A DNA stretch of 64,000 nt, from assembly GCF_015207425.1 (NCBI RefSeq), contig NZ_JADEWZ010000018.1:1-64000 (forward strand), written 5' to 3'. The notes under the pieces are model-generated. The model saw only the letters and a program-made list of their open reading frames with translations. It did no database searches and had not been told where the DNA came from. Below, piece by piece: positions 30,029 through 64,000 of the stretch (the first letter of the stretch is position 1; each line of letters begins with the position of its first letter). The translations under genes and the position numbers were made by a program. Origin of the DNA: Lusitaniella coriacea LEGE 07157. GTDB lineage: Bacteria > Cyanobacteriota > Cyanobacteriia > Cyanobacteriales > Spirulinaceae.

Positions 30029-30883
30029 TTAAACGAGTTCTGGATGATAGGGGTTAATATTTGGATATTTTAGTGCAGTTCGCACTAGGGGAAACTGAGA
30101 TAGGAGTTGAGATCGAACAAAAGCAGGCAGAATGTCTTGATATAGCTCTGTTCTTAGAATTTCAATTAAATTTCTTAGAACTTCGTGTTCCCCTGCAATA
30201 TCCTTTTGCCTTGTTGTTGAGTAAGAATTAGGTAACACTCTCAATGCCGACAGTGCTTCTGGAATGTAGCAAATTCCGTAACGAAACGCGATCGCGTGGA
30301 AAATAAACCAATCGCAATACCATTTCAAATCGGAAAGATATCCCCCTTCCTCAAGAAAAAACTCCCGCTTGATAATACACGTATGTCCGGCAATCCACAA
30401 TTTATGGGAACTCACCACCTCGATTAAGGCTTCTGGTGAGATGTAACAGGGTTTCTCGCCATAATGGAACCAATCCTCGTGTTTATCAATGTCCCCCGTC
30501 GCATCGTCCAGAAACGCGGGGTGAGAGCAACACAATCCCGCACCGGGATATTGGGCGAGAAGAGTCATGGATTTCTCAAAAAACCCTGGTAAAACCCTGT
30601 CGTCTGCGGGACAACAGCAAATATAGTCTCCCGATGCCAATTCGACTGCTCGATTAACGGTAGAGATAACGCCTTGGTTGCTGGGATTGCGGTGTAGGTG
30701 AATCAGATCGGACTGTTTTGCAAAGCTTTCGATAACCTCAACGCTAGAGTCCGTCGAATCGTCGTCAATGACAACAATTTCTTTCGGACTCCAACTCTGG
30801 TTCAAAATCGCCTGCAACTGTTCGCCGACATAATTGGCGTGGTTATAGTTGGGAACGATCGCGGATAGCGTGGGCAAGTTCAA
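30029..30883 (-). CDS. GT2-family glycosyltransferase
   Basis: The 284-residue protein is a GT-A fold enzyme: SAIVPNYNHANYVGEQLQAI, VVIDDDSTDSSVEVIES and CCPADDRVLPGFFEK (a PADDR variant of the DxD motif). The start is TTG 30883, overlapping the stop of the gmhA-like gene by four bases (TTGA), so the two are coupled. It is cytoplasmic and likely acts on a sugar nucleotide. It stands between the isomerase and the bifunctional glycosyltransferase. Confidence 0.9.
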   Translation of the reverse strand: MNLPTLSAIVPNYNHANYVGEQLQAILNQSWSPKEIVVIDDDSTDSSVEVIESFAKQSDLIHLHRNPSNQGVISTVNRAVELASGDYICCCPADDRVLPGFFEKSMTLLAQYPGAGLCCSHPAFLDDATGDIDKHEDWFHYGEKPCYISPEALIEVVSSHKLWIAGHTCIIKREFFLEEGGYLSDLKWYCDWFIFHAIAFRYGICYIPEALSALRVLPNSYSTTRQKDIAGEHEVLRNLIEILRTELYQDILPAFVRSQLLSQFPLVRTALKYPNINPYHPELV

Positions 30884-31503
30884 GCCATCATCTCCTGAAG
30901 GGCAACTTCCGGCAGCGATCCTTTCATCAACCCGTCTAAAATGCAGTGACAGATGGATAAATGGGCGATTTCTGCAAAACCATAGGAATGAGAAGGGACG
31001 TAGAAATTAATATCTCCCGACTGACGCAGGGGATTGTCCGGTTTGAATGCGGATAGAGTGATGACATGACACCCCATCTGCGTTCCTTGGTTCGCACCGG
31101 CGAGGATATTCGCCGACTGTCCCGAACTGCTGATGGCAAAAATCACATCTCCCGGTTGAGCAAACATGGCGATGGGTTTGCTGAACACCTGTTCGTAGCC
31201 GAAATCGTTGCCAATGCAGGTGAGCATCGCGCCGTCGTTGAACGAAACCGCCGGAAAACCGCCATTCCGCCAGTAGTCAATAGCTTGGTGGCTGGCAACG
31301 GCTGCACTTCCCCCATTCCCAATGAAAATCACTTTTTTCTGCTGCTGGGTTTGTTGCTGAACGAGTTTTGCCGCTTGAGAAACTCCCTCATCAAAGGATA
31401 GGGGAGAAGACGCGCGATCGCTTGCTTGAAAATTCTCGCTCAATTGAGCGAGTTTGCGAAAATAGTCGGTTGCAAAAGGGAGTTCTGAATTGAAGGATTG
31501 CAT
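30880..31503 (-). CDS. GmhA-like sedoheptulose-7-phosphate isomerase (SIS domain)
   Basis: The 207-residue SIS protein has the GmhA pattern: VIFIGNGGSAAVASHQAIDY, CIGNDFGYEQVFSKPI, DVIFAISSSGQSANIL and a C-terminal HLSICHCILDGLM helix. GmhA converts sedoheptulose-7-phosphate to D-glycero-D-manno-heptose-7-phosphate, the first step to nucleotide-activated heptose. A GmhB-like gene lies at the right edge of this window, which supports a heptose product. DiaA-like SIS proteins are an alternative, but this genetic setting favours GmhA. Confidence 0.82.
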   Translation of the reverse strand: MQSFNSELPFATDYFRKLAQLSENFQASDRASSPLSFDEGVSQAAKLVQQQTQQQKKVIFIGNGGSAAVASHQAIDYWRNGGFPAVSFNDGAMLTCIGNDFGYEQVFSKPIAMFAQPGDVIFAISSSGQSANILAGANQGTQMGCHVITLSAFKPDNPLRQSGDINFYVPSHSYGFAEIAHLSICHCILDGLMKGSLPEVALQEMMA

Positions 31504-38116: not shown

Positions 38117-39358
38117 TTAGATGACTTTAAGTTCGGGCAAAAACTGAATGAAATGTCCGCCTTGAGCGAGATAGGCTTGATGCTTGCTCATAATGGGTTC
38201 GGCGTATCGCCAAGCGAGAATCAAAACATAGTCTGGTTTTCGTTCGTATAGTTCTTGAGACGGAAGCACGGGAATGTGATGTCCGGGAGAGAATAAGTCG
38301 TGCCGAATCGGGTTATCGTCAACCAAAAAACTCAACAACTCACTAAGCTCGAAGTAGTATAGCAGGGTTGTTACGCCGACCGAAGCGCCATAGCCCGCGA
38401 TCGTTTTACCCTGTGCTTTGAGGTCTTTCAACAGGTCGAGCAGTTGCTCTTTAACCCCTTGGATTTTAGCTGCAAATTCTAGGTAAGGAGTTGCGCGATC
38501 CATTCCCAAACGAACTTCAGCATCAATCATTGCTTTGACTGACGGGGAAACCGGACGAGAACCCCCTTTCAGTTGTGCGGTACAGCGAATCGAACCGCCT
38601 TTTGTCGCTACGTGGTCAACGTGAATCAGTTCCATATCGTGGCGACGGAAGAAGGATTCTAAGGGTTTGACATTGAAGTAAGTGAGGTGTTCGTGGTAAA
38701 TGTTGTCAAACACGTCGTTTCTAATCGTATCCGCACAGTAACCCGTTTCCATAACAAAAACGCCATCGGGTGCTAGGAGATGGCGAATGCCTTCAAGGGT
38801 GTTGGGTAAATCGTCGATATTAGCAAAGACATTATTTGCCGTAATAATCGTTGCTGCACCGTATTTTTGCTTGATTTCGCTCGCAACTTCGGGATTGAAG
38901 AAGGTTGCTAAGGTTTCAATGCCCGATTCGGTCGCTTTCTGGGCAATATGAGCGGCGGGTTCCACCCCTAAAACGCGCATTCCTCGATCTTGGAAGTGTC
39001 GCAGAATTGTGCCATCATTGCTACCAATATCGATAACCAGAGCGCTTGCAGGCGGATTGATGCGTTGTAGAACGTCGATGGCGTATTGCCGGAAGTGTTC
39101 GACGAGTCCTAGGGAAATTGAAGTGGTGTAGATGTAGTTGCCATAGAGAATGTCAGGATCGACAACATCGATCAGTTGAAGAAGACCACAATCTTGGCAA
39201 AAAAAGACATCGAGGGGATAGGTTTCTTGAACTTTATCCAGAGCCTCAGCAGCGACGTAGCGATCTCCCGGTGGAGTCGCCGCAGGTTGGATAACGAGTT
39301 CTAGATTCTTGCTGTCACACAGGCGACAGGTTTCGCGTCGGTAGTGAGACGCACTCAT
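38117..39358 (-). CDS. Sugar C-methyltransferase (TylCIII/NovU-like)
   Basis: The 413-residue protein has the full family set: N-terminal zinc site CRLCD...CQDCG, SAM motif I VIDIGSNDGTILRHFQDRG, the METGYCADTIRNDVFDNIYH followed by EHLTYF catalytic region, and a C-terminal domain with GYGASVGVTTLLYYFEL and FLVDDNPIRHDLF. Homologues add a methyl carbon to C3 or C5 of dTDP-4-keto-deoxysugars. With the adjacent epimerases, a branched deoxysugar is likely. The gene is divergent from the DUF4058 gene. Confidence 0.88.
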   Translation of the reverse strand: MSASHYRRETCRLCDSKNLELVIQPAATPPGDRYVAAEALDKVQETYPLDVFFCQDCGLLQLIDVVDPDILYGNYIYTTSISLGLVEHFRQYAIDVLQRINPPASALVIDIGSNDGTILRHFQDRGMRVLGVEPAAHIAQKATESGIETLATFFNPEVASEIKQKYGAATIITANNVFANIDDLPNTLEGIRHLLAPDGVFVMETGYCADTIRNDVFDNIYHEHLTYFNVKPLESFFRRHDMELIHVDHVATKGGSIRCTAQLKGGSRPVSPSVKAMIDAEVRLGMDRATPYLEFAAKIQGVKEQLLDLLKDLKAQGKTIAGYGASVGVTTLLYYFELSELLSFLVDDNPIRHDLFSPGHHIPVLPSQELYERKPDYVLILAWRYAEPIMSKHQAYLAQGGHFIQFLPELKVI

Positions 39359-44220: not shown

Positions 44221-47082
44221 TTATAGAAGATGTAAGTGTTTTTGTAAAAATGCTCGCCCAACTCGACTATTAAACCCATAGCTTCCATGAGTTTTTCCAA
44301 GCCGATTAAACTGAGATTGCAGACTATCATTTTCAAGAGTGTAGGTCAACTTACCGTCTAACTGTTCTAAAATCTCTAACACAAGATCTTTGATTTCATC
44401 TGATGTATTATCAATAAACTGAATACCTTGTGCTAGATAAAAATTACTGTGGAAGTTTTCTGCTAGAAAAGAAGACCAGATTTCTTCAAATGTGAGATAT
44501 CTTTTTTCTGGAATCGACCAATAGAGTTTTGGGATGTACAAATTATTAAAATAAAAAGGTCGGGCAACAATAGGATTGTAATTAGTCAGCGCGCAGGGAA
44601 TGCCAAAGGCAGGAGGAATCATACAAGGACCCGAAGCGGTTCCCAGGTAAAAGTGACAGCAAGCACACAAAAAAACATCCATCCAGTCGCTTTTCATTTC
44701 GCTGTGAGCGTAATCGATAACCTGCTTCATAGGAGGGAGAGGCTTCATTGTTGGGTCGCCAATACGAATCACCCACCCTCCTTGTTCTACAATCGTTTGA
44801 ATGGCAAGTAAGTAGGTTTGGATATCAGCGTTGCGGTGATTATTGGGAGGTCGATCTTTGTCCCCGGTATATCCCGATTCTCTGACGTGAAGGCAGACAA
44901 ACCAAGCATCTTTAGGAACGCCGAGTTTCTGCAAACAATTCCAACCGCGATGGGTATCGGAATCGGATAAGGTAAGTAAAGGCGCTCGTTTCTCCTCGTG
45001 CCACTGTTTTTCTACCTCAGCAATAAGTTGGTCAACCGCTTGTGCTTGACCTTGACGAAAACCAACCACATTAATTCGTTCTTCTAAATATTGGGCAATA
45101 GGGGTAAATTCTTGAATGGTGTCAGGGTCGGAAATGATTTTAATGTAAGGACTCCAATAATTGAGAAAACAGGGATTAACCATTTTGTCTGGAGGGACTA
45201 ATACAGCAGTTCGGCATGAAGTTCGCCAACCTAAAATCCCCATTTTGACGTAGTAGTCTAATAGCGTAATGTGTCCGATTCCGTTGGGAATACAGAGAAT
45301 TAATCGAAGATCGATTTTATCTAGAAGTTTTTCTTTTGCTAGTTTTTTCTGAACCTCAGCCGCTTTCTGGTAAATTGCTAATGCTTCATTTTTTCTCCCG
45401 ATAATGAGCAAGTTATCTCCCGCTTTGTAATAGGCTTCTAGCCAATCGTTTTTCAAAGTAAAAGCTTGTTTCCAATGCGCGATCGCGCGCTCAAAACTTG
45501 GCATAGCTTCATCGCTCTCAATATCGCTGTAGTAAAGCTTTTCCAGCATATTACCCAAGCGAAAGTGCGCCTCCGCAGCATCAAGAGAAAGTACTGTGCA
45601 TAACTGATATTTTTGTGCGGCTTGTTCCCATAAACTTTGGCACTCAAGAATTGACCCAATTTGTAAGAAAACATCGAACAAGTCAGGTGAGATTCTTGGG
45701 TGTTTTTGCTCGATCTGTCGATCGATCCCTTCAGGATTGGGTAAAGCACTTTTAAGATCGATTCGTGAATCAACCTCCTTTAATCCCAACGTAATAGCTT
45801 TTTGATAATCTTGAATTGCTTTGCTCAACTGACCATCAAACTCTAGAGCATTACCTCGATAGAAGTAAGCCACAGACCAATTAGGCTGTAAAGCGATAAC
45901 TTTTTGGTATTGCTCGATAGCTTTTTGGTGTTTGCCCAAGTTGAGTAAGGAATGACCGAGCTTGAAGTGAGTTTCTGCAACAGGAGGTTGAAGAACCAGT
46001 ACCCGATACCAACTTTGAGCTGCGTTTTCCCAATTACTTTGGCTAAAGAATAGTTCTCCCAAACATCGATGGGGATCTACCCATTCTGGTTGTAGCGCGA
46101 TCGCGCTCTGATAACTCTCAATTGCCTCATTTAATTTGCCTTGATGAGAAAGGATATTGCCTAAGTTGAAGTGAGAATCAGCCTTATCCGGTTGCAGCGC
46201 GATCGCGGATTCAAAACACTTTTGCGCCTGTTCTAATTGCTCTTGAGCTTTGAAGGCTTCTGCGAGGTATAAATGAGGTTCTACCCATTCCGGTTGCAGC
46301 GCGATCGCGCTCTGATAACTCTCAATTGCCCTCTCTAATTTGCCCTGATGAAAAAGAATATTGCCTAAATTGAAGTGAGAATCGGCTCTCTCCGGTTGCA
46401 GCGCGATCGCGGATTCAAAACATTCTTTTGCTTGTTCGAGATGTCCTAGGGCTTTGAAGGCTTCTGCGAGGTATAAATGAGGGTCTACCCATTCTGGTTG
46501 CAGTGCGATCGCGTTCTTATAGTTCTCAATGGCTTCCTCTAATTGACCCTGATTGTTCAGAGCATTGGCAAGATTAAAATAAACCTCTGCTCTTTCGGGT
46601 TCAAGCGTCAGAACTTTTTTGTAAATTGCTGCTGCTTTGTTAAACTGACTTTGGTTTAGTAGTGCATTCCCCAATAGCCAAAAAGCATCTACCCAACGAG
46701 GCTGTAGCGGTATAGCCTGTTGGTATTGTTCAAATGCCTCATCCCATCGCTCTTGTTGGGCGAGAACCTTCCCATAATTGAAGTGTAATTCTTCCTCGTT
46801 GAAACCCAGCGCGATCGCCTGTTGATAATCCTGAGTTGCTTCCTGTAACTGCTCTCCTACGGCGAAAGCGTTTCCTCGGTAGTAGTAAGCAGACGCATGA
46901 TTAGGATAGAGCGCGATCGCTTGATTGTACTTTTCAAGAGCTTCTGCGAATTTCCCTTGTGCTAAGAGAATATTTCCGGAGTTTACAATTTCATCTAAAG
47001 ACCAAAAATTGAACCGACGAATCAGGTTAAGGAAATATTTTAGCCAGGGAAACTTTTTCAAGAGTGGCAGAAAACGCTGCAT
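44221..47082 (-). CDS. TPR-glycosyltransferase (TIGR04372-like)
   Basis: The 953-residue protein begins with a basic amphipathic helix (QRFLPLLKKFPWLKYFLNLI), then about 14 TPRs (residues 30-585). The C-terminal domain (about 588-953) has WFVCLHVRESGYTGDKDRPP, RNADIQTYLLAIQTIVE, GGWVIRIGDPTMKPLPPM, DYAHSEMKSDWMDVFLC and CHFYLGTASGP. That domain matches my memory of the TIGR04372 glycosyltransferases of surface-polysaccharide clusters. The TPRs may bind a partner enzyme or the glycan carrier. A DNA-level 204-bp repeat lies within (see separate entry). The acceptor is unknown. Confidence 0.8.
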   Translation of the reverse strand: MQRFLPLLKKFPWLKYFLNLIRRFNFWSLDEIVNSGNILLAQGKFAEALEKYNQAIALYPNHASAYYYRGNAFAVGEQLQEATQDYQQAIALGFNEEELHFNYGKVLAQQERWDEAFEQYQQAIPLQPRWVDAFWLLGNALLNQSQFNKAAAIYKKVLTLEPERAEVYFNLANALNNQGQLEEAIENYKNAIALQPEWVDPHLYLAEAFKALGHLEQAKECFESAIALQPERADSHFNLGNILFHQGKLERAIESYQSAIALQPEWVEPHLYLAEAFKAQEQLEQAQKCFESAIALQPDKADSHFNLGNILSHQGKLNEAIESYQSAIALQPEWVDPHRCLGELFFSQSNWENAAQSWYRVLVLQPPVAETHFKLGHSLLNLGKHQKAIEQYQKVIALQPNWSVAYFYRGNALEFDGQLSKAIQDYQKAITLGLKEVDSRIDLKSALPNPEGIDRQIEQKHPRISPDLFDVFLQIGSILECQSLWEQAAQKYQLCTVLSLDAAEAHFRLGNMLEKLYYSDIESDEAMPSFERAIAHWKQAFTLKNDWLEAYYKAGDNLLIIGRKNEALAIYQKAAEVQKKLAKEKLLDKIDLRLILCIPNGIGHITLLDYYVKMGILGWRTSCRTAVLVPPDKMVNPCFLNYWSPYIKIISDPDTIQEFTPIAQYLEERINVVGFRQGQAQAVDQLIAEVEKQWHEEKRAPLLTLSDSDTHRGWNCLQKLGVPKDAWFVCLHVRESGYTGDKDRPPNNHRNADIQTYLLAIQTIVEQGGWVIRIGDPTMKPLPPMKQVIDYAHSEMKSDWMDVFLCACCHFYLGTASGPCMIPPAFGIPCALTNYNPIVARPFYFNNLYIPKLYWSIPEKRYLTFEEIWSSFLAENFHSNFYLAQGIQFIDNTSDEIKDLVLEILEQLDGKLTYTLENDSLQSQFNRLGKTHGSYGFNSRVGRAFLQKHLHLL
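46069..46542. repeat. 204-bp (68-codon) tandem repeat within the TPR gene
   Basis: Units 46339-46542 and 46135-46338 are nearly identical in protein and highly similar in DNA, and a partial third copy follows (46069-46134). Each holds two TPRs (AIALQPEWV-PHLYLAEAFKA and ESAIALQP--ADSHFNLGNIL). HIP1 sites recur at the AIAL codons. This looks like recent unequal recombination inside the gene. Confidence 0.7.
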
Positions 47083-47261: not shown

Positions 47262-49292
47262 TTAGTCAAGAAGATCTCTATACTTTTGCAGGAAATTTCG
47301 CCCTAACCGACTAGGATAACTCGTGTACTGAGAAGAAATCCGATCTAACTGCTCTTGCAGGCAAATATCTTCTTCTGTGTACTCAATACTGCCCTCCAAA
47401 CGTTCCAGCATTTCCACCACTAGGGCATTAATCTCCTCTAGGGTATTGTCTACGGGTTTAATGCCCTTCTCAATCAAGAATGGAGCGTATTGAATGTATC
47501 CAATAGAAGGATCTATAACCTCGGCAAAGGATAAGTATCGCTGCTCTGGTTCTGACCAGTAAAGCTTGGGAAGCAGTACGTCAGCACTATAAGCAGAGCG
47601 AATTCCCATCGGAGTCCAGTTAGTAATCGCACACGGTACGCCGAATGTTGGCGGAACGTGAGACAATCCAGAAGTCGTGCCAATATAGAAGCGACAAGCT
47701 CCACATAAGAAAACATCCATCCAATCGCTTTTAATCGAACTATGGGCATAGTCAATCACCTGCGGTTGAGGGGGTAGGGGTTTCATGCTCGGATCGCCAA
47801 CGCGAATAACCCATCCCCCTCGCTCTACAATAGTTTGAATGGCAAGGGAGTAGGTGTCGATATTTGCATTGCGGAAGGTTTGATATAAACCCTTGGAATC
47901 TTTGTGAAAACCTGGTTCGCGGACGTGAAGGCAGACAAACCAAGCATCCCTCGGAACGCCAAGAGTTTCAAGTGCTTGCCATCCCCGTTCCCGGTGAGAT
48001 TCTGACAGACTCAATAGCGGGTGTCGATTTTCTGCTTCCCACTGTTTTTGTATGATTGCCCAAGCTTCAAAATAAGGTAGCGTTCGACCATCCGAAAATG
48101 TTACGCCAGCCAGCACATCTTCAGAACAATCTTTGAGAAAGGAGAGTTGCTGAATCACAGCAGGCTCGCTCACAACGTCGATGTAAGATTTCCAATAGTC
48201 CAATAAGCAGGAGTTAACGATTTGATTAGGAGGGGTCAGAAGAATGGTGTGTCGATGGGTTTGACGATCTAAAAGACCCATTTTCACGTAGTAATCTAAC
48301 AAGCCAATATGACCGATGACAGAACTCCAGGTGGAGGATAAGCAGCGAACATTAATCTGACTAAGCTTTTTCTCTTTCGCCTTTTGCGCTTGCTCCTGAT
48401 AGCCTTGCTGTAGCACATCGATCATTTGCGCGCGATCGCCTCTGAACATTAAGCGAATAGCTAAGTCGTTATATAGCACCATATCGCCAGGTTTGAGTGC
48501 CATCGCCTTCCCCCAAGCGGTTTTGGCTTCCTCCAGCCGATTCATCCGGTCGAGAGTATTGCCGAGGAAGTGATACCCTTGAGCAAAATCAGGTCTGCAT
48601 GACAGTTCCTTACGGTAGTACTCAACTGCCTCCTCGAGTTTGCCTTGATAAGTTAGTGCCGTCGCAAAGTTAAAGCGGAATCCGTGTAAGTTGGGGTTGA
48701 GTGCAAGTACTTTTTCGTAAATTTCAACGGCTCGATCGTACTGCTGTAGCGATAAAAGGGCGTTGCCATAATAGAAGTAGGTTTCTGCTGAATCTGACTG
48801 ACGCGCGATCGCGCCCTTATAACTCTCAATCGCCTCCTCCATTTTGCCTTGCCCTGTCAGAGCATTGCCCATATTCACGTAGAGATCGCCCCAGTCTAAC
48901 CCTAGGGCAATTGCGGAGTTGTAATCTTGAAGCGCATCATCCAAATCTCCTTTAGAGGAAAAGGCATTGCCACGATAATAGTAAGCAGCTCCCCAGTCCG
49001 GTTTGAGCGCGATCGCTTGGTTATAATTCTCTAGCGCCTCGCCAACACTATTTTGTAGAATTAAGGTATTACCCCTTTCTAAATAAGCAACAGCCAATGC
49101 TTCAGAAGATTGATTCTGTTCTTCTTGCGAAACTGGACGTAGAACGCTGAATAAATAATAGGCAAGATAGAAGAATACTTTTTTGAGCAAACGCAACACT
49201 CTTGGCAGAATGGGAGCGTTTTTAAAGCGTAGTTTAACTAGAGCCTGAACTTGCTCCCAGGAACTATTTTTATCTGGAGTAAAAACAACCAC
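47262..49292 (-). CDS. TPR-glycosyltransferase (TIGR04372-like), paralogue
   Basis: The 676-residue paralogue of the downstream gene starts at GTG 49292, with AGGA 9 bases upstream. It has an N-terminal hydrophobic helix (about 28-52), about six TPRs (residues 68-285) and the same C-terminal glycosyltransferase-like domain (about 312-676) with WFVCLHVREPGFHKDSKGLY, RNANIDTYSLAIQTIVE, GGWVIRVGDPSMKPLPP and CRFYIGTTSGLSHVPP. Two copies in tandem suggest duplication with divergence, for two different glycosidic links or for chain-length variation. Confidence 0.8.
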   Translation of the reverse strand: MVVFTPDKNSSWEQVQALVKLRFKNAPILPRVLRLLKKVFFYLAYYLFSVLRPVSQEEQNQSSEALAVAYLERGNTLILQNSVGEALENYNQAIALKPDWGAAYYYRGNAFSSKGDLDDALQDYNSAIALGLDWGDLYVNMGNALTGQGKMEEAIESYKGAIARQSDSAETYFYYGNALLSLQQYDRAVEIYEKVLALNPNLHGFRFNFATALTYQGKLEEAVEYYRKELSCRPDFAQGYHFLGNTLDRMNRLEEAKTAWGKAMALKPGDMVLYNDLAIRLMFRGDRAQMIDVLQQGYQEQAQKAKEKKLSQINVRCLSSTWSSVIGHIGLLDYYVKMGLLDRQTHRHTILLTPPNQIVNSCLLDYWKSYIDVVSEPAVIQQLSFLKDCSEDVLAGVTFSDGRTLPYFEAWAIIQKQWEAENRHPLLSLSESHRERGWQALETLGVPRDAWFVCLHVREPGFHKDSKGLYQTFRNANIDTYSLAIQTIVERGGWVIRVGDPSMKPLPPQPQVIDYAHSSIKSDWMDVFLCGACRFYIGTTSGLSHVPPTFGVPCAITNWTPMGIRSAYSADVLLPKLYWSEPEQRYLSFAEVIDPSIGYIQYAPFLIEKGIKPVDNTLEEINALVVEMLERLEGSIEYTEEDICLQEQLDRISSQYTSYPSRLGRNFLQKYRDLLD

Positions 49293-50093: not shown

Positions 50094-50543
50094 TCAGGTT
50101 TCCTGAAATAACAAACTAGCTCTCGCGACTTGCTCAATGCCGTTTTCTGCTTCCATCGCAATTGTTCTGCAACTCAAAATATCTTCGATTAGGCTAATCT
50201 GCTCCCCTCTCGCAATGACCAATTCTTCCAGTGCAAAATGTACCTCGCATTCTTTGCTCAAGATAGTCTCATAAAGCTGTTTTCTTCGCTTCCACTCCCC
50301 AGGCAATAAATCTAGAGAATAGAAAACCAAGCCAGCTAGATTAATTAGCTCTTCTTGTAGTGAATTGAGCATCATATAACAATTATCCATATAATACTCT
50401 GTGGCACTCAAAAGAAAAAGCATATTGTTTTTTTGAGTGTAGTTGCGAATTACTAAATTCTGGACTCTTTGGGGAATAATTTGTCCTGCGATTTCACGAC
50501 TAGAAATATAGCCTCGCCATCCCAATTTCGATTTTATTGACAT
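50094..50543 (-). CDS. LIC12192-like 'sporadic carbohydrate cluster' protein
   Basis: The 149-residue protein starts KSKLGWRGYISSREIAGQII followed by PQRVQNLVIRNYTQKN. It has LFLLSATEYYMDNCYMMLNS and VHFALEELVI, the signature pattern I remember for the LIC12192 family (TIGR04323-type), a group of unknown function in sporadic carbohydrate clusters of Leptospira and other bacteria. The fold may be resolvase-like, judging from the short alternating segments; this is a guess. Its start overlaps the 2OG oxygenase-like gene by 10 bases, so the two are coupled. Confidence 0.7.
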   Translation of the reverse strand: MSIKSKLGWRGYISSREIAGQIIPQRVQNLVIRNYTQKNNMLFLLSATEYYMDNCYMMLNSLQEELINLAGLVFYSLDLLPGEWKRRKQLYETILSKECEVHFALEELVIARGEQISLIEDILSCRTIAMEAENGIEQVARASLLFQET

Positions 50544-51337
50544 TGTGGTTTTGTATAACTCATTCCAATTCGAGTGGTTGGACGGATTGTAATGGGCAGG
50601 AATGACTCTCCTAATCCCTTAGTGCCGTAAGGCGAAAGCAAGCTTTTAAAACGTACATTAATTGTCCAGCGCGTTTCTTTCTCTTTATTAACACAATTGC
50701 CATGAGGGAGAGAGTGAGAAAAAATTACTGCATGACCATAGGGAACATCCAGCCAAACGAGTTGTTCTTGAATTGCTTGAAAGAATTCTTCGGAATTAAG
50801 TTTAGAGTATTCTTGGAAATTTTGATAAACGCGATCCGAAGCAGGTTTAGGCAAAATAAACATCGACTTGGTGCAATAGCAATCCACTAAGGGGAGCCAG
50901 AAGACCACTTCATAAGGAGAATTTCCCGACCAAACATCGGAATGAACAGGTAATAGCGAACTGTTGTCTCCTGGCAATTGAATACTAAGATTGCAGCTTC
51001 TTTGCATTGCTAGCTCATTGCCAACTAATCGATCGAGGTATTGCTTCCCCAAGAAATACACCAGATGATTAATGGACTTGTCTTGTGCGAGATGAGAAAT
51101 CAATTTTACTCGAAAGTTATTTAACTGCTCGACTGCTACAAAAGTGTGAGTTTTATCAAAAAAAGAATCTCGACCTAGCTTTTTTTCTAAAGCAAGTAAT
51201 TTTGTCCCTGCTTCATATAAACTCACTTTGATTTGATTCAAAATTGTAATATCTTTTATCGGAAAAATAAGGTAACCATTTTCTAAAAATTTTTGAATTA
51301 TTTCATTCTCTTCTAAGGTAAAGAAGGGATTTTTCAT
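50534..51337 (-). CDS. 2OG-Fe(II) oxygenase-like protein of a sporadic carbohydrate cluster
   Basis: The 267-residue protein starts at ATG 51337 with GAGG upstream. The iron site HSD in LLPVHSDVWSGNSPYEVVFW and the distal HGNCVNKEKETRWTINVRFK (His and Arg) fit the cupin-fold 2OG dioxygenases. SLLSPYGTKGLGESFLPI is a conserved-looking tail. It resembles the family found beside LIC12192 proteins (TIGR04324-type). It could hydroxylate or oxidatively modify a sugar or lipid. The exact reaction is unknown. Confidence 0.72.
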   Translation of the reverse strand: MKNPFFTLEENEIIQKFLENGYLIFPIKDITILNQIKVSLYEAGTKLLALEKKLGRDSFFDKTHTFVAVEQLNNFRVKLISHLAQDKSINHLVYFLGKQYLDRLVGNELAMQRSCNLSIQLPGDNSSLLPVHSDVWSGNSPYEVVFWLPLVDCYCTKSMFILPKPASDRVYQNFQEYSKLNSEEFFQAIQEQLVWLDVPYGHAVIFSHSLPHGNCVNKEKETRWTINVRFKSLLSPYGTKGLGESFLPITIRPTTRIGMSYTKPQCQ

Positions 51338-51450
51338 GAAAATATTCCTCTTGCTTATCTCCAGAAAAGTACTTGAGTTATTTGAGGCGGAACGCAAGCT
51401 AAAATTTCAATGCTATTCTTTACAACCTTTTTTAAGCAAATCAATAGAAA

Positions 51451-52113
51451 TCACTCAAAAAAGATATATCCGAAATCTCCTGTATAGCCACTCTGTTGAG
51501 CAAACCACTCCCATTCCTGGGGAGTATAGAAGGTTTCGCAGGTTAGTTGCCAATAAAGTAGGTTCACTCTTTCTCGTTCATTCCGATAAGACTCAATAAG
51601 AACATATTTATTTTCTTTGCCAACGCGCTCGATTTCTTGAAGCACTTTGTGCAATTCGTAGTTATATAAGTTGTGGAGTGTTGTGATGGAAACAATAAAG
51701 TCAAAGCTGTCATCAGGATAAGGTAAGTCAGTTGCATTACCTATTTGCAAAAACGGTTTAACTTCTTCCTTGGCATTGGCAATTGCATACTCAGAAATAT
51801 CAATTCCGGCAATTTCAATACCTGGGACAGCTTGAGTGAATTCGTATAGGAGGTAGCCTTTTCCACATCCTACATCAAGAATTTTATCGCCAGCTTTTAG
51901 TCCATAGTGATCTGCCATTGCCTTAGCAACAGTCAACCAACGCCCATCATAACGATAACCTCCATAGCCATAACGGCGATCTCCATCCCAGTAATCTTTG
52001 CCGTACTGTTTGGCAATGATGGCACATTCTGCCTTGTCATCAGAAGTTACTCGTTCGAGGTAATTACGTTGAGTGCGGGTGTGAAGTCTGGTTACAAAAT
52101 CGAGATTTGCCAC
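51451..52113 (-). CDS. Class I SAM methyltransferase of the LIC12192-associated set
   Basis: The 220-residue protein has YGKDYWDGDRRYGYGGYRYD at its N-terminus, then motif I KILDVGCGKGYLLYEF, GIDISEYAIANAKE and DSFDFIVSITTLHNLYNYEL. The start is GTG 52113 with AGATAG before it. It lies 113 bp upstream of the oxygenase gene and on the same strand. The set of methyltransferase, oxygenase and LIC12192-like gene repeats a pattern I associate with sporadic carbohydrate clusters. The acceptor is unknown. Confidence 0.8.
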   Translation of the reverse strand: MANLDFVTRLHTRTQRNYLERVTSDDKAECAIIAKQYGKDYWDGDRRYGYGGYRYDGRWLTVAKAMADHYGLKAGDKILDVGCGKGYLLYEFTQAVPGIEIAGIDISEYAIANAKEEVKPFLQIGNATDLPYPDDSFDFIVSITTLHNLYNYELHKVLQEIERVGKENKYVLIESYRNERERVNLLYWQLTCETFYTPQEWEWFAQQSGYTGDFGYIFFE

Positions 52114-59111: not shown

Positions 59112-60035
59112 CTACTGGCTCAGTACCTCAACCACAGCAACCAACTTCTCCGCACTAATCCCATAACGTGCCATTACATCCAACTGCGCGCCATACTTAT
59201 CGGGGAATACATCCGGAATTCCAATGCGCTTGAAGCGCTTTGATGGATTAAAGTTCGCCTCAGCAACGATTTCGGCAACTGCACTTCCTAATCCCCCCAT
59301 TAAAGTATGCTCTTCAATGGTGACGACAACCGGAACGGAAGCCATATGCTCTAGAAGCGCCGTTGTATCTAGGGGTTTAACCGTCGGCACGTGCAGCACT
59401 GCTGTAGAAATTCCTTGCTGTTTTAGCGTATCCGCCGCATCTAGCGATGCTTTCAGCGTTACCCCCGTTGTGATAATTAACGCATCAGATCCCTCGCGCA
59501 TCGGAAATACCTTACCAATCGCAAATGGTATATCATCGGTGGTTAAAATTGGCTCGTTCCCCTTACCCAAACGGATATACATCGGACCCGGATGTTCGAC
59601 AGTGAGCGGCATCAAGCGTCCCATTTCCGCCTCATCCGCCGGAGCTACAATGGTCATATTGGGAATAGCGCGTAAAATGGCAATATCGTCTATTGCCAAG
59701 TGTGTCGGACCAAGAGGCGCATAGACAACTCCACCCCCATTTCCAATGAGGCGAACATTAACATTATGCAAGCCTAAATCGAGTACGACCTGCTCGAAAC
59801 AGCGGCGGGTAATAAAGGTTGCAATCGTATTGACATAAACAATTCGACCTTCAAGAGCCAGTCCCGCAGCAATTCCAATAATATTCGCTTCGTTAACCCC
59901 CTCCATCAAAAATCGACCGGGTATTTCTTCTTTAAATTGATTAAGGGTTCCAAACCCCAAATCCGACCCCATAAAGAAAATGCGCTCGTCGTTTTTCGCG
60001 AATTCGTAGACCTTCTCCAAACAAAGTTTACGCAT
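59112..60035 (-). CDS. Transketolase C-terminal subunit (split transketolase)
   Basis: The 307-residue protein matches the pyrimidine-binding and C-terminal domains of transketolase: FMGSDLGFGTLNQFKE, FLMEGVNEANIIGIAAGLAL (the Glu of the ThDP site), APLGPTHLAIDDIAIL and the regulatory PTVKPLDTTALLEH. ATG 60035 overlaps the stop of the N-terminal partner. Split transketolases make a heterotetramer with ThDP and are common in sugar clusters, where they move two-carbon units. The substrate is unknown. Confidence 0.88.
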   Translation of the reverse strand: MRKLCLEKVYEFAKNDERIFFMGSDLGFGTLNQFKEEIPGRFLMEGVNEANIIGIAAGLALEGRIVYVNTIATFITRRCFEQVVLDLGLHNVNVRLIGNGGGVVYAPLGPTHLAIDDIAILRAIPNMTIVAPADEAEMGRLMPLTVEHPGPMYIRLGKGNEPILTTDDIPFAIGKVFPMREGSDALIITTGVTLKASLDAADTLKQQGISTAVLHVPTVKPLDTTALLEHMASVPVVVTIEEHTLMGGLGSAVAEIVAEANFNPSKRFKRIGIPDVFPDKYGAQLDVMARYGISAEKLVAVVEVLSQ

Positions 60036-60891
60036 CGACTCCAACCTCCAGTTCTGCCAACATAGACTGAATTTCCTCGTCCGATATCTTATTTTTGTGG
60101 TGCCATTTCAAGTTATTTTCGGCATAACTAATGCCTTTGCCTTTGATGGTATGGCAAATAATTGCACTCGGTTTGTCAGACTCGAAAGGGACTTGAGTCA
60201 AAGCGGAACGTAACGCCTCGACATCATGACCATCTACCTCCGTTGCAGCAAAACCAAATGCTCGCCATTTATCTGCGAAAGGTTCTAAATCCTGAACCTC
60301 AAAGGTAGAGCCGTAGGATTGATGCTTGTTGTAGTCCACTAAGACGGTTAAGTTACTTAACTTGTGTTTTCCCGCACACATTGCAGCTTCCCAGACTGAG
60401 CCTTCATTCGATTCGCCATCACCCAGAATCACAAAGGTACGAGAATCGGTTTGAGCGTAGCGCGCATTCAGCGCAAAACCAATCCCAATAGACAGTCCGT
60501 GTCCCAAGCTTCCGGTAGAAGCTTCTACACCCGGAACTTTACTGGCTTCTGGATGACCGCCGAGAATCCCATCTTCTTGACAAAACTTGTCCAGCTCGGT
60601 TTTGGGGAAGAAACCTTTGTCAGCAAGTATTGCGTATAGTGCCAGACAGCCATGACCTTTACTCAGGATACAGCGATCGCGCGCTGACCATTTCGGATTT
60701 TTGGGATCATAGCGAAGGATATCGTCATACAGGACTCGCAAAATCTCGATTAAAGAATATGCCGCACCGAGGTGTCCTCTACGACTTCCTTCAAGGATTC
60801 TAACAACGATTTTGCGTAACGCCCTGGAACGACGATCTAATCCAGGAGAATCAGCATTTGGCGGTTCAGCGATAGTAGGGGAATTGCTCAT
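60028..60891 (-). CDS. Transketolase N-terminal subunit (split transketolase)
   Basis: The 287-residue protein has the ThDP diphosphate-binding domain: RGHLGAAYSLIEILRVLYDD, SKGHGCLALYAILADKG, HPEASKVPGVEASTGSLGHG and the GDGESNEGSVWEAAM motif for the Mg2+/ThDP site. It is translationally coupled to the C-terminal subunit. The start ATG 60891 lies inside the 3' end of the kinase-like gene. The pair could make a two-carbon branch or sedoheptulose-7-P for the GmhA-like isomerase. Confidence 0.9.
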   Translation of the reverse strand: MSNSPTIAEPPNADSPGLDRRSRALRKIVVRILEGSRRGHLGAAYSLIEILRVLYDDILRYDPKNPKWSARDRCILSKGHGCLALYAILADKGFFPKTELDKFCQEDGILGGHPEASKVPGVEASTGSLGHGLSIGIGFALNARYAQTDSRTFVILGDGESNEGSVWEAAMCAGKHKLSNLTVLVDYNKHQSYGSTFEVQDLEPFADKWRAFGFAATEVDGHDVEALRSALTQVPFESDKPSAIICHTIKGKGISYAENNLKWHHKNKISDEEIQSMLAELEVGVDA

Positions 60892-61927
60892 ATTCACTCG
60901 CGATTTTATTTAACATTTGCTTGGACTTTGCCAATTGTTCGGCTTGCCGCTTACTTTTATCCATTGGGTTTACATCTGCAAACCCACGCCTGAGAAGATG
61001 TTCTGGAATGAACTCATTTAAGAAAATTAGACACCATTTAAGACCGAACAGAGGATATACAATTTCGACTCTTTTTGTCAAATCTTTATGATCTTCAAAT
61101 CCTAGTTGAATTTGCTCAAAAAATTGCTGCTTAAGGGAGTAATCCAATATCCTTGCTGGGTGAAGGAGAAAATCAGAAATCATTTTTGCGGGATCGTCCC
61201 AACCAAAGTACTCAAAATCCAGAAAGACTAATTTTCCATCATTACATCTCAGTGCATTGTGAAACCCAAAATCAGAAGGACTGAGGGTTCTTTTGACAGC
61301 ATTTATCTCTTTCTCGAAGCTTGTGTTTGACTGTTGGAGACGAGATTTAGACCACTCTATAAGCTGTTCTAAAAACGGAATAAAATCTTTTGTTAGAAAG
61401 CATTCGAGTTCTTCATATTGCCCCTTTTTTTCTTCAAGAGAAGTTAAACGGTAAAGGCGCTGTTCGAGATTATTGGCAATTGCACTAACAGAAAAGCAAG
61501 CTTCTGATGCTGGGGAAAGATGCTGGCACTGCGGGAGTTTTTTGAGATTTTTCAGGTTAATCAGAAATTGGACTAGCGCATTAATATCTGACTCTCGAAT
61601 TTCTGAAGAATCGATCGCGTCTCCTTCAATATACTCGTACAGCGCCCATCCTTGCTCTTGATTACGCAAAAAAGCTTTAGGAACGCTTTTAATCCCGTTT
61701 TCTTCAAATAGCTGAAGAGAGGTAAATTCAGTTTCCAAACGATTTCTTCGATCCAGGTGATGGCGAAAATAGAGCTTTAGAGCATATTGTTCGTCAGCAT
61801 CATTTCTGAGTCGATAGACTTGGCTGTTTTTTCCGCCGCTTACTCTGTTAGCTTCTGAGAAGGGATACCCTGGTAACTGAGGAAGGATTGATTCTAAATT
61901 AGAGACTTGTACTGAAAAAGTATTCAT
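60866..61927 (-). CDS. APH/choline-kinase-fold phosphotransferase
   Basis: The 353-residue protein has NRVSGGKNSQVYRLR as the ATP-binding loop, QYALKLYFRHHLDRRNRL (Lys for the phosphates), LSPSDFGFHNALR (the catalytic Asp, with Ser at the usual His position of the Brenner motif) and VFLDFEYFGWDDPAKM (metal site). It resembles aminoglycoside or choline kinases. In this setting it may phosphorylate a sugar or polyol. The start overlaps the stop of the HAD gene by 29 bases, and the end overlaps the transketolase gene. Confidence 0.78.
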   Translation of the reverse strand: MNTFSVQVSNLESILPQLPGYPFSEANRVSGGKNSQVYRLRNDADEQYALKLYFRHHLDRRNRLETEFTSLQLFEENGIKSVPKAFLRNQEQGWALYEYIEGDAIDSSEIRESDINALVQFLINLKNLKKLPQCQHLSPASEACFSVSAIANNLEQRLYRLTSLEEKKGQYEELECFLTKDFIPFLEQLIEWSKSRLQQSNTSFEKEINAVKRTLSPSDFGFHNALRCNDGKLVFLDFEYFGWDDPAKMISDFLLHPARILDYSLKQQFFEQIQLGFEDHKDLTKRVEIVYPLFGLKWCLIFLNEFIPEHLLRRGFADVNPMDKSKRQAEQLAKSKQMLNKIASEYEQFPYYR

Positions 61928-62534
61928 TAACCTCTTTCCAGCTATTGATAATTGTTACATCTGTTTTTGGGATGTATTGTTGATGAGGATCGTAAAGAAT
62001 TTTCTGAATATGCGTTGGAAATGAAGTTTCTTGAAACGTTTCTTCTAAGTCGTCAATAAAACTTTCACAACTTAACGTTTTAACGCGCTCGATTTTATCA
62101 GTTCGAGTTGATTCAAAAAATACGCGATCGCGCGATAAACCCAATTCTTCTTTTTCAAAGAATTTATTCTGTTGCATCCAGTTTAGTGCAGCCTCGCGTA
62201 AATTTGTTTGCGTTTCATCAAAATTAGCGTATTCTGTTTTGTGGCTGACAATGTACGTTGTGATATTATTTTGTTTACAGTATTGAAAAAAATCTTTTAC
62301 GCCGTCGATTAAATGAGCTTTTTCCATTTTGCACCCATAAGCAAGTGCTTGTAGTTTCTGCCATTCAACGTCGCCGTCTGGCAATTTTCTGATGCTGTCT
62401 CGAATCACTTTTTTACTTTTCTGCGTTTCACGATCGATCCAACCGTGCTGTACTGCGAGTTCGTGCATCAACTCATCGTAACTAACAATTGTATTGTCAA
62501 AATCTACGCCAATTATTCGATCAACCCGATTCAT
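61899..62534 (-). CDS. HAD-superfamily hydrolase-like protein
   Basis: The 211-residue protein has motif I GVDFDNTIVSYD (D-x-D-x-T), a helical cap (about 25-85), motif II TTYIVSHKTEY (Ser in a T/S site) and motif IV SFIDDLEET. It probably dephosphorylates a small phosphosugar. It is the first gene of the coupled four-gene run with the kinase-like and split transketolase genes. Kinase and phosphatase next to each other on the same strand suggests an activated-intermediate pathway. Confidence 0.75.
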   Translation of the reverse strand: MNRVDRIIGVDFDNTIVSYDELMHELAVQHGWIDRETQKSKKVIRDSIRKLPDGDVEWQKLQALAYGCKMEKAHLIDGVKDFFQYCKQNNITTYIVSHKTEYANFDETQTNLREAALNWMQQNKFFEKEELGLSRDRVFFESTRTDKIERVKTLSCESFIDDLEETFQETSFPTHIQKILYDPHQQYIPKTDVTIINSWKEVNEYFFSTSL

Positions 62535-62668: not shown

Positions 62669-63670
62669 TCATTTGAGTTCGATCTCTTGCATGGTTTTGA
62701 TGTTGTAATAATTGATATCGGTCATGGAGTCGGGAATTAGACCTTTGTTAAAAGCTTTGAGTAAATCCTCAACTGCTTCTTCTATGGTGTGCTGCGGGAC
62801 AAATCCAATTTCTTCTTTAATTTTATCGGAGGAAACGTGATAGGAACGGTTGTCATCGGTGGGAGTGGTGACAATTTCCACATCTTCCCCAACGACGTTG
62901 CGAACCATATTGGCGATTTCTTTGACTTTGTAGTTTTCGTATCCGGCGTTGAAAATTTTGCCATCAATTTTTTCGTCGGGAAGTTGAAGGCATTTAATGT
63001 ACAAATCGGTCATGTCCTCAATGTGAATATTAGGACGTTTCTGTTCGCCGCCGAAGACTTTGATTTTGTTGTTGTTAACGGCGTGGTTAGTGAGAATGTT
63101 GACGGTTAAGTCGAGGCGCAGGCGGGGAGAGTAGCCGCAGACGGTTGCGGGACGCAGGACGAGGGTGACAAATCCGGGTTCCCGTTGGGAGAGGAGGACT
63201 TCTTCGCAGAGTGCTTTGTATTTGGAGTAGTCGGTGAGGGGTTGCAGGGGGAGGTCTTCGGTGACGTTTTCGGTTTCTTTGATGCCGTAGACGCTGGAGG
63301 AGGAGGCGTAGATGAAGCGTTTGACTTTGTTGGCTTTGGCGACTTCTACGAGGCTGATGAAGGCATCGTAGTTGATGGATTTGCCTAAGTCGGGGTTAAG
63401 TTCAAAGCTGGGATCGTTGGAGATGCAGGCGAGGTGGATGACGGCATCGCAACCGGGCATAATTTTTTCTAGGAGGGCGCGATCGCGCAAATCTCCTTTA
63501 ATCTGTTCTAATCCGGGATGGTCTTTAACGGCATCTAATACGTTTTCGCCGTAAATATAAAGGTCGATGACTTTGACGCTATACCCTGCGTTCAGTAGTT
63601 TTGGGACTAACACCGATCCCACATAACCGGCACCGCCTGTGACTAAAACGGTTTTAATTTCTGCTGTCAT
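62669..63670 (-). CDS. NAD-dependent epimerase/dehydratase (SDR), sugar-nucleotide
   Basis: The 333-residue extended SDR has VTGGAGYVGSVLVPKLLNAG, YASSSSVYG as the catalytic Ser region and YSKYKALCEEVLL as YxxxK. C-terminal parts (FGGEQKRPNIHIEDMTDLYI, FNAGYENYKVKEIANMVR) are typical of heptose- and deoxysugar-active SDRs. ATG 63670 has GAGG five bases upstream, while the frame opens six codons earlier. Next to the partial GmhB it may modify an activated heptose, but a hexose is equally possible. Confidence 0.88.
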   Translation of the reverse strand: MTAEIKTVLVTGGAGYVGSVLVPKLLNAGYSVKVIDLYIYGENVLDAVKDHPGLEQIKGDLRDRALLEKIMPGCDAVIHLACISNDPSFELNPDLGKSINYDAFISLVEVAKANKVKRFIYASSSSVYGIKETENVTEDLPLQPLTDYSKYKALCEEVLLSQREPGFVTLVLRPATVCGYSPRLRLDLTVNILTNHAVNNNKIKVFGGEQKRPNIHIEDMTDLYIKCLQLPDEKIDGKIFNAGYENYKVKEIANMVRNVVGEDVEIVTTPTDDNRSYHVSSDKIKEEIGFVPQHTIEEAVEDLLKAFNKGLIPDSMTDINYYNIKTMQEIELK

Positions 63671-63727
63671 ATTTTCCTCACAAACCACAAGTTTTCAATA
63701 GATTCAAAAAGTTCAAAGATGCACGAT

Positions 63728-63774: not shown

Positions 63775-64000
63775 TTAAGTTACCAATTCTTCTCCCCGTC
63801 TCCCTCTCACCCCGTCACCCCGTCTGTCCAGATCGAACAAATATGCTAAAGACGAAATAACCGTTACAAGCTCGCGGTAAGATTTTCCCTTTAGCTCCTG
63901 TTTGGCTTGCAACCCATACCCGGTTTCCACTAGAAAGGCTTTCATTCCCAATTCAATTCCCGGTTCTAAGTCCCGGAGGCGATCCCCCACAACCCAACAG
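63775..64000 (-). CDS. HAD phosphatase, GmhB-like (C-terminal part; continues past the window)
   Basis: The frame enters from the right edge (in phase at 63999) reading CWVVGDRLRDLEPGIELGMK, then AFLVETGYG. That pattern is the C-terminal part of D-glycero-D-manno-heptose 1,7-bisphosphate 7-phosphatase and related HisB-type HAD enzymes. The last 16 residues (RRGDGVRGRRGEELVT) are encoded by low-complexity repeat DNA and are probably not part of the conserved domain. A heptose pathway is supported by the GmhA-like gene at 30880. The N-terminus lies outside. Confidence 0.7.
   Translation of the reverse strand, partial: CWVVGDRLRDLEPGIELGMKAFLVETGYGLQAKQELKGKSYRELVTVISSLAYLFDLDRRGDGVRGRRGEELVT

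Follow-up and report, generated by a model that had tools for sequence, protein, structure and literature searches.

We analysed a gene run in a 64,000-nucleotide stretch of the genome of the cyanobacterium Lusitaniella coriacea LEGE 07157 (contig NZ_JADEWZ010000018.1, positions 1 to 64,000; hereafter the window), in which the two halves of a split transketolase are encoded together with a kinase-like protein and a HAD-superfamily phosphatase-like protein. The cyanobacterial origin agrees with two strong matches of the genome to a photosystem reaction-centre family, which among 14 control genomes matched Synechococcus only. A preliminary description of this DNA had reported four genes of these kinds overlapping end to start in one direction, and had treated them as a unit. 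The open reading frames confirm the overlaps, and Pfam matches and HAD motif residues confirm the identities. The run, however, is longer than four genes, because genes for a short-chain dehydrogenase/reductase (SDR), a GmhB-like phosphatase and a cytidylyltransferase-PfkB (CYT-PfkB) fusion precede them:

59112..60044, minus strand: C-terminal subunit of the split transketolase, with Pyr and TKC domains (Pfam Transket_pyr PF02779, 100 bits; Transketolase_C PF02780, 95 bits)
60028..60897, minus strand: N-terminal subunit of the split transketolase, the thiamine diphosphate (ThDP) pyrophosphate domain (Pfam Transketolase_N PF00456, 167 bits)
60866..61927, minus strand: APH-fold kinase-like protein (APH PF01636, 44.8 bits, cut-off 23.2)
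61899..62534, minus strand: HAD-superfamily phosphatase-like protein with no Pfam model of its own (HAD motif residues, weak HAD matches)
62669..63688, minus strand: nucleotide-sugar SDR, candidate C4-dehydrogenase (Epimerase family, 141 bits; 6vo6/6vo8, 150 bits)
63775..64000, minus strand: GmhB-like phosphatase, its gene truncated where the window stops (complete gene C18 63775-64395, equal to L004:15776-16396; NF006506, 160.6 bits)
C18 64395-65963, beyond the window, minus strand: CYT-PfkB fusion, HldE-like (NF008454, 142 bits)

The HAD and kinase genes share 29 bases, the kinase and N-half genes 32, and the N-half and C-half genes 17. The SDR gene lies upstream of the HAD gene across a gap of 134 bases, the GmhB-like gene another 86 bases upstream, and the CYT-PfkB and GmhB-like genes have 1 base in common. 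From strand and spacing alone, the four genes are inferred to be the downstream portion of a seven-gene operon. A promoter and terminator scan gave sites no more frequent than in shuffled sequences.

The four-gene arrangement is not a product of chance, since the set recurs in 16 distinct loci from several phyla. These loci, the window included, come from phylum and family samples, three metagenome genomes and a Solidesulfovibrio plasmid; L020, a second site on the same contig as L017, was not counted, and in the plasmid locus (L067) the HAD gene was assigned by sequence match and the kinase by annotation. A search with the HAD protein matched 13 of 386 genomes from the phylum and 3 of 13 from the family, L. 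coriacea being counted in both; in 10 of the 13 phylum genomes the complete four-gene set lies close by, and the remaining 3 have only a HAD relative. The neighbourhood survey of this gene order suggested in the preliminary description thus recovered the set but not a constant order. In L034 the order is N-half, C-half, HAD, kinase; in L036 a 2-oxoglutarate (2OG)-Fe(II) oxygenase gene and a LIC12192-family gene sit between the HAD-kinase pair and the transketolase pair; in L038 the kinase gene is apart from the rest of the set. The HAD and kinase proteins are fused in one reading frame in L018 and L033. In L018, which comes from an archaeal metagenome-assembled genome, the N-half is interrupted by an in-frame stop and the C-half is short (L018:11852-13152). 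HAD relatives without kinase or transketolase neighbours were seen at L042:9485-10096, L045:9041-9709 and L046:9418-10125.

The transketolase belongs to the split-chain class, with Transketolase_N on one chain and the Pyr and C-terminal domains on the other. Its nearest solved chains are 6yaj, a split-transketolase C-chain, for the C-half (180 bits) and 6yak for the N-half (255 bits). It has transketolase domains instead of the decarboxylase-type ThDP fold of the YerE type, and the E1 type (alpha-keto acid dehydrogenase type 2, AviB-like) is not the best match (E1_dh 38.8 bits versus Transketolase_N 167 bits). The window proteins retain the ThDP motif GDG...N, the catalytic Glu and the His residues of the N-half. 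The pair is not the housekeeping enzyme, because a separate full-length transketolase of 683 aa (Transketolase_N, 518 bits) is encoded on a different contig; the concern raised in the preliminary description, that the pair might be the only transketolase serving central metabolism, does not apply. Another Transketolase_N match outside the cluster was also found in 3 of 3 further genomes, those of L017, L018 and L019.

The acceptor side of the active site is altered. The window C-half has Leu at the position of Asp469 and Gly at that of His461 of the E. coli enzyme, which we take to be the acceptor Asp and the phosphate His, respectively. This Asp, within the G-E-D-G motif, and the His, within the preceding T-H motif, are both kept by 17 of 17 presumed housekeeping split enzymes as well as by the full-length transketolase of L. 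coriacea and by 6yaj; the DXS of L. coriacea keeps the Asp. Both residues are absent from 25 of 25 sequences of the present group, the window protein included, namely 16 of 16 HAD-kinase-cluster proteins and 9 of 9 proteins of a CDP type described below. The housekeeping label covers 17 sequences from one family, with genomes mostly of 1.6-2.3 Mb, and was assigned after retention of the His and Asp had been seen; L113, of the same family and without the Asp, was left unlabelled. Of the four positions that bind phosphate in E. coli transketolase, the window enzyme keeps two, R358 and R520, and has changes at the other two. Loss of the Asp would mark acceptors without the usual alpha-hydroxyl, of which a ketone is one case. 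According to a study of the Carboxydothermus enzyme, mutating R358, S385, D469 and R520 improves the use of aromatic aldehydes (PMC7661550).

In a tree of 53 C-subunits, the window enzyme falls within a 23-member clade (support 96/87) that consists of 14 HAD-kinase-cluster transketolases and 9 others. The 17 presumed housekeeping split enzymes, the full-length enzyme and the DXS of L. coriacea lie outside this clade, as does a LysW-type pair; several of the outer branches are long. The C-subunit matches came from 30 loci, second matches such as those in G264 and G361 being set aside, and the tree left out L018 and L043 (truncated) as well as L106 and L089 (same genes as L036 and L038). The 9 other clade members are connected to cytidine diphosphate (CDP)-sugar genes. 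RfbF, RfbG and RfbH produce CDP-3,6-dideoxy-4-keto-glucose; relatives of RfbF and RfbG occur near 8 of the 9 and relatives of RfbH near 7. The CDP label was set before the contexts of L092-L096 were retrieved, and it then held for 8 of 9. The genes stand in the row RfbG-RfbH-N-half-C-half in L119, L121, L122 and L123, with RfbF directly ahead of the row in L119, L122 and L123 and ~0.9 kb ahead in L121. In L116 and L117 all three Rfb genes lie within the same stretch as the transketolase pair, and in L068 RfbF and RfbG adjoin it. An SDR gene follows the pair in L119. RfbF and RfbH exceed their NCBIfam cut-offs in L116 and L119, RfbG does so in L119 (not in L116), and RfbH in L117. The clade and the altered residues agree with two-carbon branching and with an acceptor that is a ketone or unusual in some other way.

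Some of these loci deserve mention on their own account. L119, L121, L122, L123, L116 and L117, all from genomes other than those of streptomycetes, are candidate clusters for a yersiniose-like sugar that would carry a hydroxyacetyl branch. On a Paenibacillus cellulosilyticus plasmid, an SDR is fused to the transketolase N-half by CDP-glucose genes (L068:6103-8010). The plasmid locus of Solidesulfovibrio carbinolicus (L067) encodes two split transketolases within a single glycan cluster that also carries pseudaminic-acid genes; one retains the Asp, and the other, of the window kind, is without it.

The kinase and HAD proteins both retain their catalytic residues, except for one loop residue of the kinase. 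The HAD motif residues D11, D13, S97, K147, D161 and D162 are invariant in 13 aligned rows, as are Lys51, Glu67, Asp219, Asn224 and Asp237 of the kinase in 15. The usual loop motif of APH kinases is HxDxxxxN. The loop here reads S-P-S-D-x4-N, with the Asp and Asn kept and Pro at the His position, which corrects the earlier reading of Ser for His; because of this replacement the protein is called kinase-like. Pro occupies that position in 12 of the 15 rows, Gln in L040, and His in L043 and L044. A model of the kinase (mean predicted local distance difference test score (pLDDT) 76, from 4 sequences) resembles APH and choline kinases, with Z 12.6-15.6 among the 50 matches shown. Spectinomycin kinase, choline kinases, homoserine kinase and N-acetylhexosamine 1-kinase were considered as guides to the substrate and rejected: they lie within ~2 Z units of each other, so the fold does not discriminate the substrate. 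Sequence searches gave no convincing solved relatives of either protein. The HAD protein had no Pfam match at E 0.001, only weak HAD matches, and a search for phage relatives of it gave no match. The overlap of the two genes and their fusion elsewhere point to one phosphate-on, phosphate-off step.

The upstream genes suggest the nature of the acceptor. The best solved match of the SDR is 6vo6/6vo8 (titled 'putative sugar-nucleotide epimerase/dehydratease'), at 150 bits over residues 12-314. We take this protein to be Cj1427 of Campylobacter jejuni, and the nearest solved relative of the SDR appears to be a heptose C4-dehydrogenase. An L-2-hydroxyglutarate oxidase homologue is found within L043 (256 bits, NCBIfam cut-off 299), partial homologues at the ends of L041 and L037 (122 and 33 bits), and a homologue with 33% identity elsewhere in the L. 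coriacea genome. Cj1427 oxidizes guanosine diphosphate-heptose at C4 with conversion of 2-oxoglutarate to L-2-hydroxyglutarate (PMC10680097); the oxidase homologues in some loci are in line with chemistry of this type. The window SDR is a candidate for oxidizing a nucleoside diphosphate (NDP)-heptose at C4 with 2-oxoglutarate as the oxidant. The gene-run fusion, with its domain order reversed relative to HldE, is the only HldE-type nucleotidyltransferase match in the genome, and a GmhA over its cut-off is encoded on another contig. Judged by these similarities, a heptose-type sugar is likely.

We propose that the products of the gene run synthesize an unusual nucleotide-linked sugar destined for a surface glycan, through heptose-type C4 oxidation and then hydroxyacetyl branching by the split transketolase; we place the probability of this reading at about 0.45. 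Sequence shows which genes and domains are present, that they recur, where the transketolase falls in the tree and which of its residues are altered, and from these findings we infer every reaction that follows. In the first step, the PfkB domain would phosphorylate a heptose-type phosphate at C1, the GmhB-like enzyme would remove the distal phosphate, and the cytidylyltransferase-like domain would couple the sugar to the nucleotide. The SDR would then oxidize C4 to a ketone, onto which the split transketolase would move a two-carbon ketol from xylulose 5-phosphate or fructose 6-phosphate. The product would be a hydroxyacetyl-branched sugar, with nine carbons if the acceptor is a heptose. The fourth step is the weakest: the kinase may phosphorylate the branch or a precursor and the HAD protein may take the phosphate off again, and a methyltransferase (MT2) with the oxygenase and LIC12192, elsewhere with a radical-SAM protein, may tailor the product.

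Two-carbon branching is favoured because of the clade shared with the CDP-4-keto-sugar pairs, the loss of the Asp and His, and the heptose C4-dehydrogenase-like relative of the SDR. A two-carbon branch on an unusual sugar had been put forward in the preliminary description. The clade and residues would fit that suggestion; the sugar-linked polyol offered beside it found no specific support. A wider proposal, which we consider doubtful, is that a so far unnamed class of split transketolases in surface-glycan clusters of cyanobacteria and other phyla adds hydroxyacetyl to NDP-4-keto sugars, and that the members of the window type would convert a 4-keto heptose to a two-carbon-branched nine-carbon sugar, with the kinase and HAD proteins putting a phosphate on and off and the oxygenase and LIC12192 tailoring the product.

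The proposed chemistry is like the branching by YerE and that of the transketolases proposed for miharamycin and amipurimycin, whereas the enzyme class, hosts and probable acceptor differ. In yersiniose synthesis (CDP-glucose enzymes, YerE and YerF), the decarboxylase-type YerE moves activated acetaldehyde from pyruvate onto CDP-3,6-dideoxy-4-keto-glucose, according to a 2025 review (PMC12247030). The likeness lies in a ThDP enzyme by 4-keto nucleotide-sugar genes and an expected two-carbon ketone branch, and relatives of the window type stand right after RfbG-RfbH, in the place of YerE. However, the split transketolase here would add hydroxyacetyl, and the acceptor is probably heptose-like. 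The same review covers the miharamycin and amipurimycin split transketolases, proposed to move hydroxyacetyl to a keto sugar, and 13 further putative ketone-using transketolases, all streptomycete and none tested in vitro; unlike the present enzymes, the miharamycin and amipurimycin ones serve nucleoside antibiotics. The split-gene transketolase of Carboxydothermus hydrogenoformans (6yaj/6yak) is the nearest solved relative of both subunits, but keeps the GEDG and TH motifs that the window enzyme has lost. The capsular heptose pathway of C. jejuni (GmhA, HddA, GmhB, HddC and Cj1427) resembles our proposal in activating a heptose before C4 oxidation by an SDR; it differs in that PMC10680097 makes no mention of a transketolase, and in that activation here would use an HldE-like fusion with reversed domains. 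A further likeness is to the NCBIfam 'sporadic carbohydrate cluster' (TIGR04323 and TIGR04324), since each family is present twice here, over its cut-off.

The loci add candidate ketone-using transketolases in cyanobacteria, in metagenome genomes and on one plasmid each of Paenibacillus and Solidesulfovibrio. Several of these adjoin a full set of CDP-3,6-dideoxy-4-keto-hexose genes, and known enzymes suffice to prepare the product of that set, so the question is directly testable. Tertiary-alcohol-forming transketolases would be useful in biocatalysis, and the proposal, if true, would provide the first functional setting for the LIC12192 family.

A number of findings weigh against the branching proposal. 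Heptose is not assured, because both activating enzymes miss their equivalog cut-offs (CYT-PfkB 142 versus 521 bits for NF008454, GmhB-like 160.6 versus 178 bits for NF006506), and the identity of 6vo6/6vo8 with Cj1427 is presumed. The HAD and kinase genes were not found beside the CDP-type transketolase pairs; branching therefore leaves them unexplained, and they would serve something special to the four-gene set. Nor do the CYT-PfkB (9/16), SDR (11/16) and HAD-kinase genes form a fixed unit. The Asp is absent also from split transketolases outside the clade (L069, L071-L077 and L113), so that losing it points to unusual acceptors in general and not specifically to ketones. The Rfb genes of G323 (L125 and L118) are ~17 kb upstream of the pair, and in L124, the context of L096, RfbF is missing and the RfbG-like and RfbH-like neighbours are weak matches. 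The N-subunit tree leaves the clade unresolved; its housekeeping group is the full-length enzyme of L. coriacea alone, none of the 17 housekeeping N-halves having been found in the short loci used, and it thus neither supports nor contradicts the clade. Finally, G302 (L120) has a LIC12192 match of 49.7 bits (cut-off 55) together with oxygenase, MT2-like and CYT-PfkB genes, and no HAD or cluster transketolase was found alongside in that stretch, so the LIC12192 module and the HAD-kinase-transketolase module can part.

The main rival to branching is linear elongation of a free sugar phosphate, which we judge rather unlikely. The kinase would phosphorylate an aldose, the transketolase would add two carbons to give an unusual ketose phosphate, and a GmhA-like isomerase would convert it to an aldose; PfkB, GmhB-like and cytidylyltransferase activities would then yield an NDP-higher sugar, the HAD protein removing the spare phosphate. 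This scheme accounts for the overlapping kinase and HAD genes, fused in two loci, beside the transketolase, and two of the four phosphate-binding positions are kept. The other two and the acceptor Asp are changed, however, and the clade common to the CDP-4-keto-sugar clusters is left unexplained. GmhA-like genes are present in several loci and in the window, but none was seen in 9 of the 16 stretches.

It is improbable, in our view, that the transketolase instead extends a non-sugar aldehyde, in the style of azinomycin or vazabitide, to a polyol or amino-polyol that is phosphorylated by the kinase, activated by the cytidylyltransferase and attached to a glycan. There is precedent in the AziC5/C6 transketolase pair, which adds two carbons to N-acetyl-glutamate semialdehyde according to a review (PMC9570651). 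The LysW-cluster pair of Streptomyces (L072), which is close to the type that lengthens amino-acid semialdehydes, also lacks the Asp, and the kinase fold is choline-kinase-like, among others. Yet the LysW-type pair falls outside the 23-member clade, and a sugar is what the SDR and GmhB-like genes suggest. The annotation of L067 lists neither a carrier-protein gene nor a semialdehyde gene; this is the one annotated locus of the set, and such genes were not sought in the others. A second, redundant pentose-phosphate transketolase that feeds sugar phosphates to the adjoining glycan genes is very improbable despite the intact catalytic Glu, ThDP motif and N-half His residues, given the full-length enzyme, the further Transketolase_N matches in the three other genomes, the changed acceptor residues and the way the pair travels with sugar genes.

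Other genes of the window that bear on the branching proposal are:

30880..31503, minus strand: GmhA-like sugar-phosphate isomerase, a possible heptose phosphate supplier (TIGR00441, 93 bits, cut-off 209)
38117-39358: C-methyltransferase-type gene, ~20 kb from the four-gene set
50094..50543, minus strand: LIC12192-family protein (TIGR04323, 143 bits, cut-off 55)
50534..51397, minus strand: 2OG-Fe(II) oxygenase, sporadic carbohydrate cluster (TIGR04324, 299 bits, cut-off 150)
51451..52113, minus strand: class I methyltransferase (MT2), of a type that other genomes also have close to the transketolase

Across the 16 loci, window included, MT2 is a neighbour in 12, the SDR in 11, CYT-PfkB in 9, and the oxygenase with LIC12192 in 8; these counts are lower bounds, since not all stretches are long or complete. 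Between the end of the LIC12192 block and the C-half lie 7.7 kb, close to the distance of about 7 kb given previously. Two LIC12192-oxygenase pairs flank the region, at 50094-51397 and C18 66060-67332; the second LIC12192 copy is at C18 66859-67332, and the family scores are 143 and 145 bits. Co-occurrence of the LIC12192 family with the set, which the preliminary description had proposed to survey, is borne out with the exception of the sub-cut-off match in G302: the family exceeds its cut-off in 7 of the 386 genomes, and 7 of 7 also hold the HAD gene (Fisher p 7e-12, ignoring kinship). With weak matches included, 15 of 386 genomes have a match and the same 7 overlap with HAD (p 4e-8, likewise ignoring kinship). 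Among the other 8 matches, L061 and L064 are serine recombinases by sequence, and those in L059, L060 and L062 lie inside long proteins resembling sensory or chemotaxis proteins. The association with a C-methyltransferase likewise recurs: 7 of the 15 other loci have a relative of this gene close to the set (102-413 bits). Radical-SAM genes lie near MT2 in L017 and L067, and the G302 stretch also holds radical-SAM-like and SDR genes.

The LIC12192 family has an unexpected fold for a protein within sugar clusters. Its AlphaFold model (pLDDT 88) shows the fold of a serine-recombinase catalytic domain, with Z up to 14.0. The best 29 aligned entries have Z 10.2-14.0, the next being at Z 7.9; 27 of them are titled recombinases, resolvases, integrases or invertases, one is a putative DNA-binding protein and one a transposon ORF. 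Foldseek alone gave two matches at E <=0.001, both serine integrases, and weak family matches reach true resolvases; the family profile gave chance matches only against solved structures. A Ser near the start of LIC12192 is one residue off the resolvase spacing, so it is not established as a nucleophile.

Literature searches found no paper with the phrase 'sporadic carbohydrate cluster', none on the HAD-kinase-transketolase cluster, and, among the papers listed, nothing clearly on transketolase in Leptospira O-antigen loci; one on LIC12192 and split-transketolase phrases returned nothing, but was insensitive, missing a known split-gene transketolase paper. Beside the LIC12192 block are the gene for a large TPR protein (47262-49292) and a long ORF related to it (44221-47082), both possibly part of the glycosyltransferases that use the product. 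Relatives of the two are also present near the four-gene set in L017, L035 and L036.

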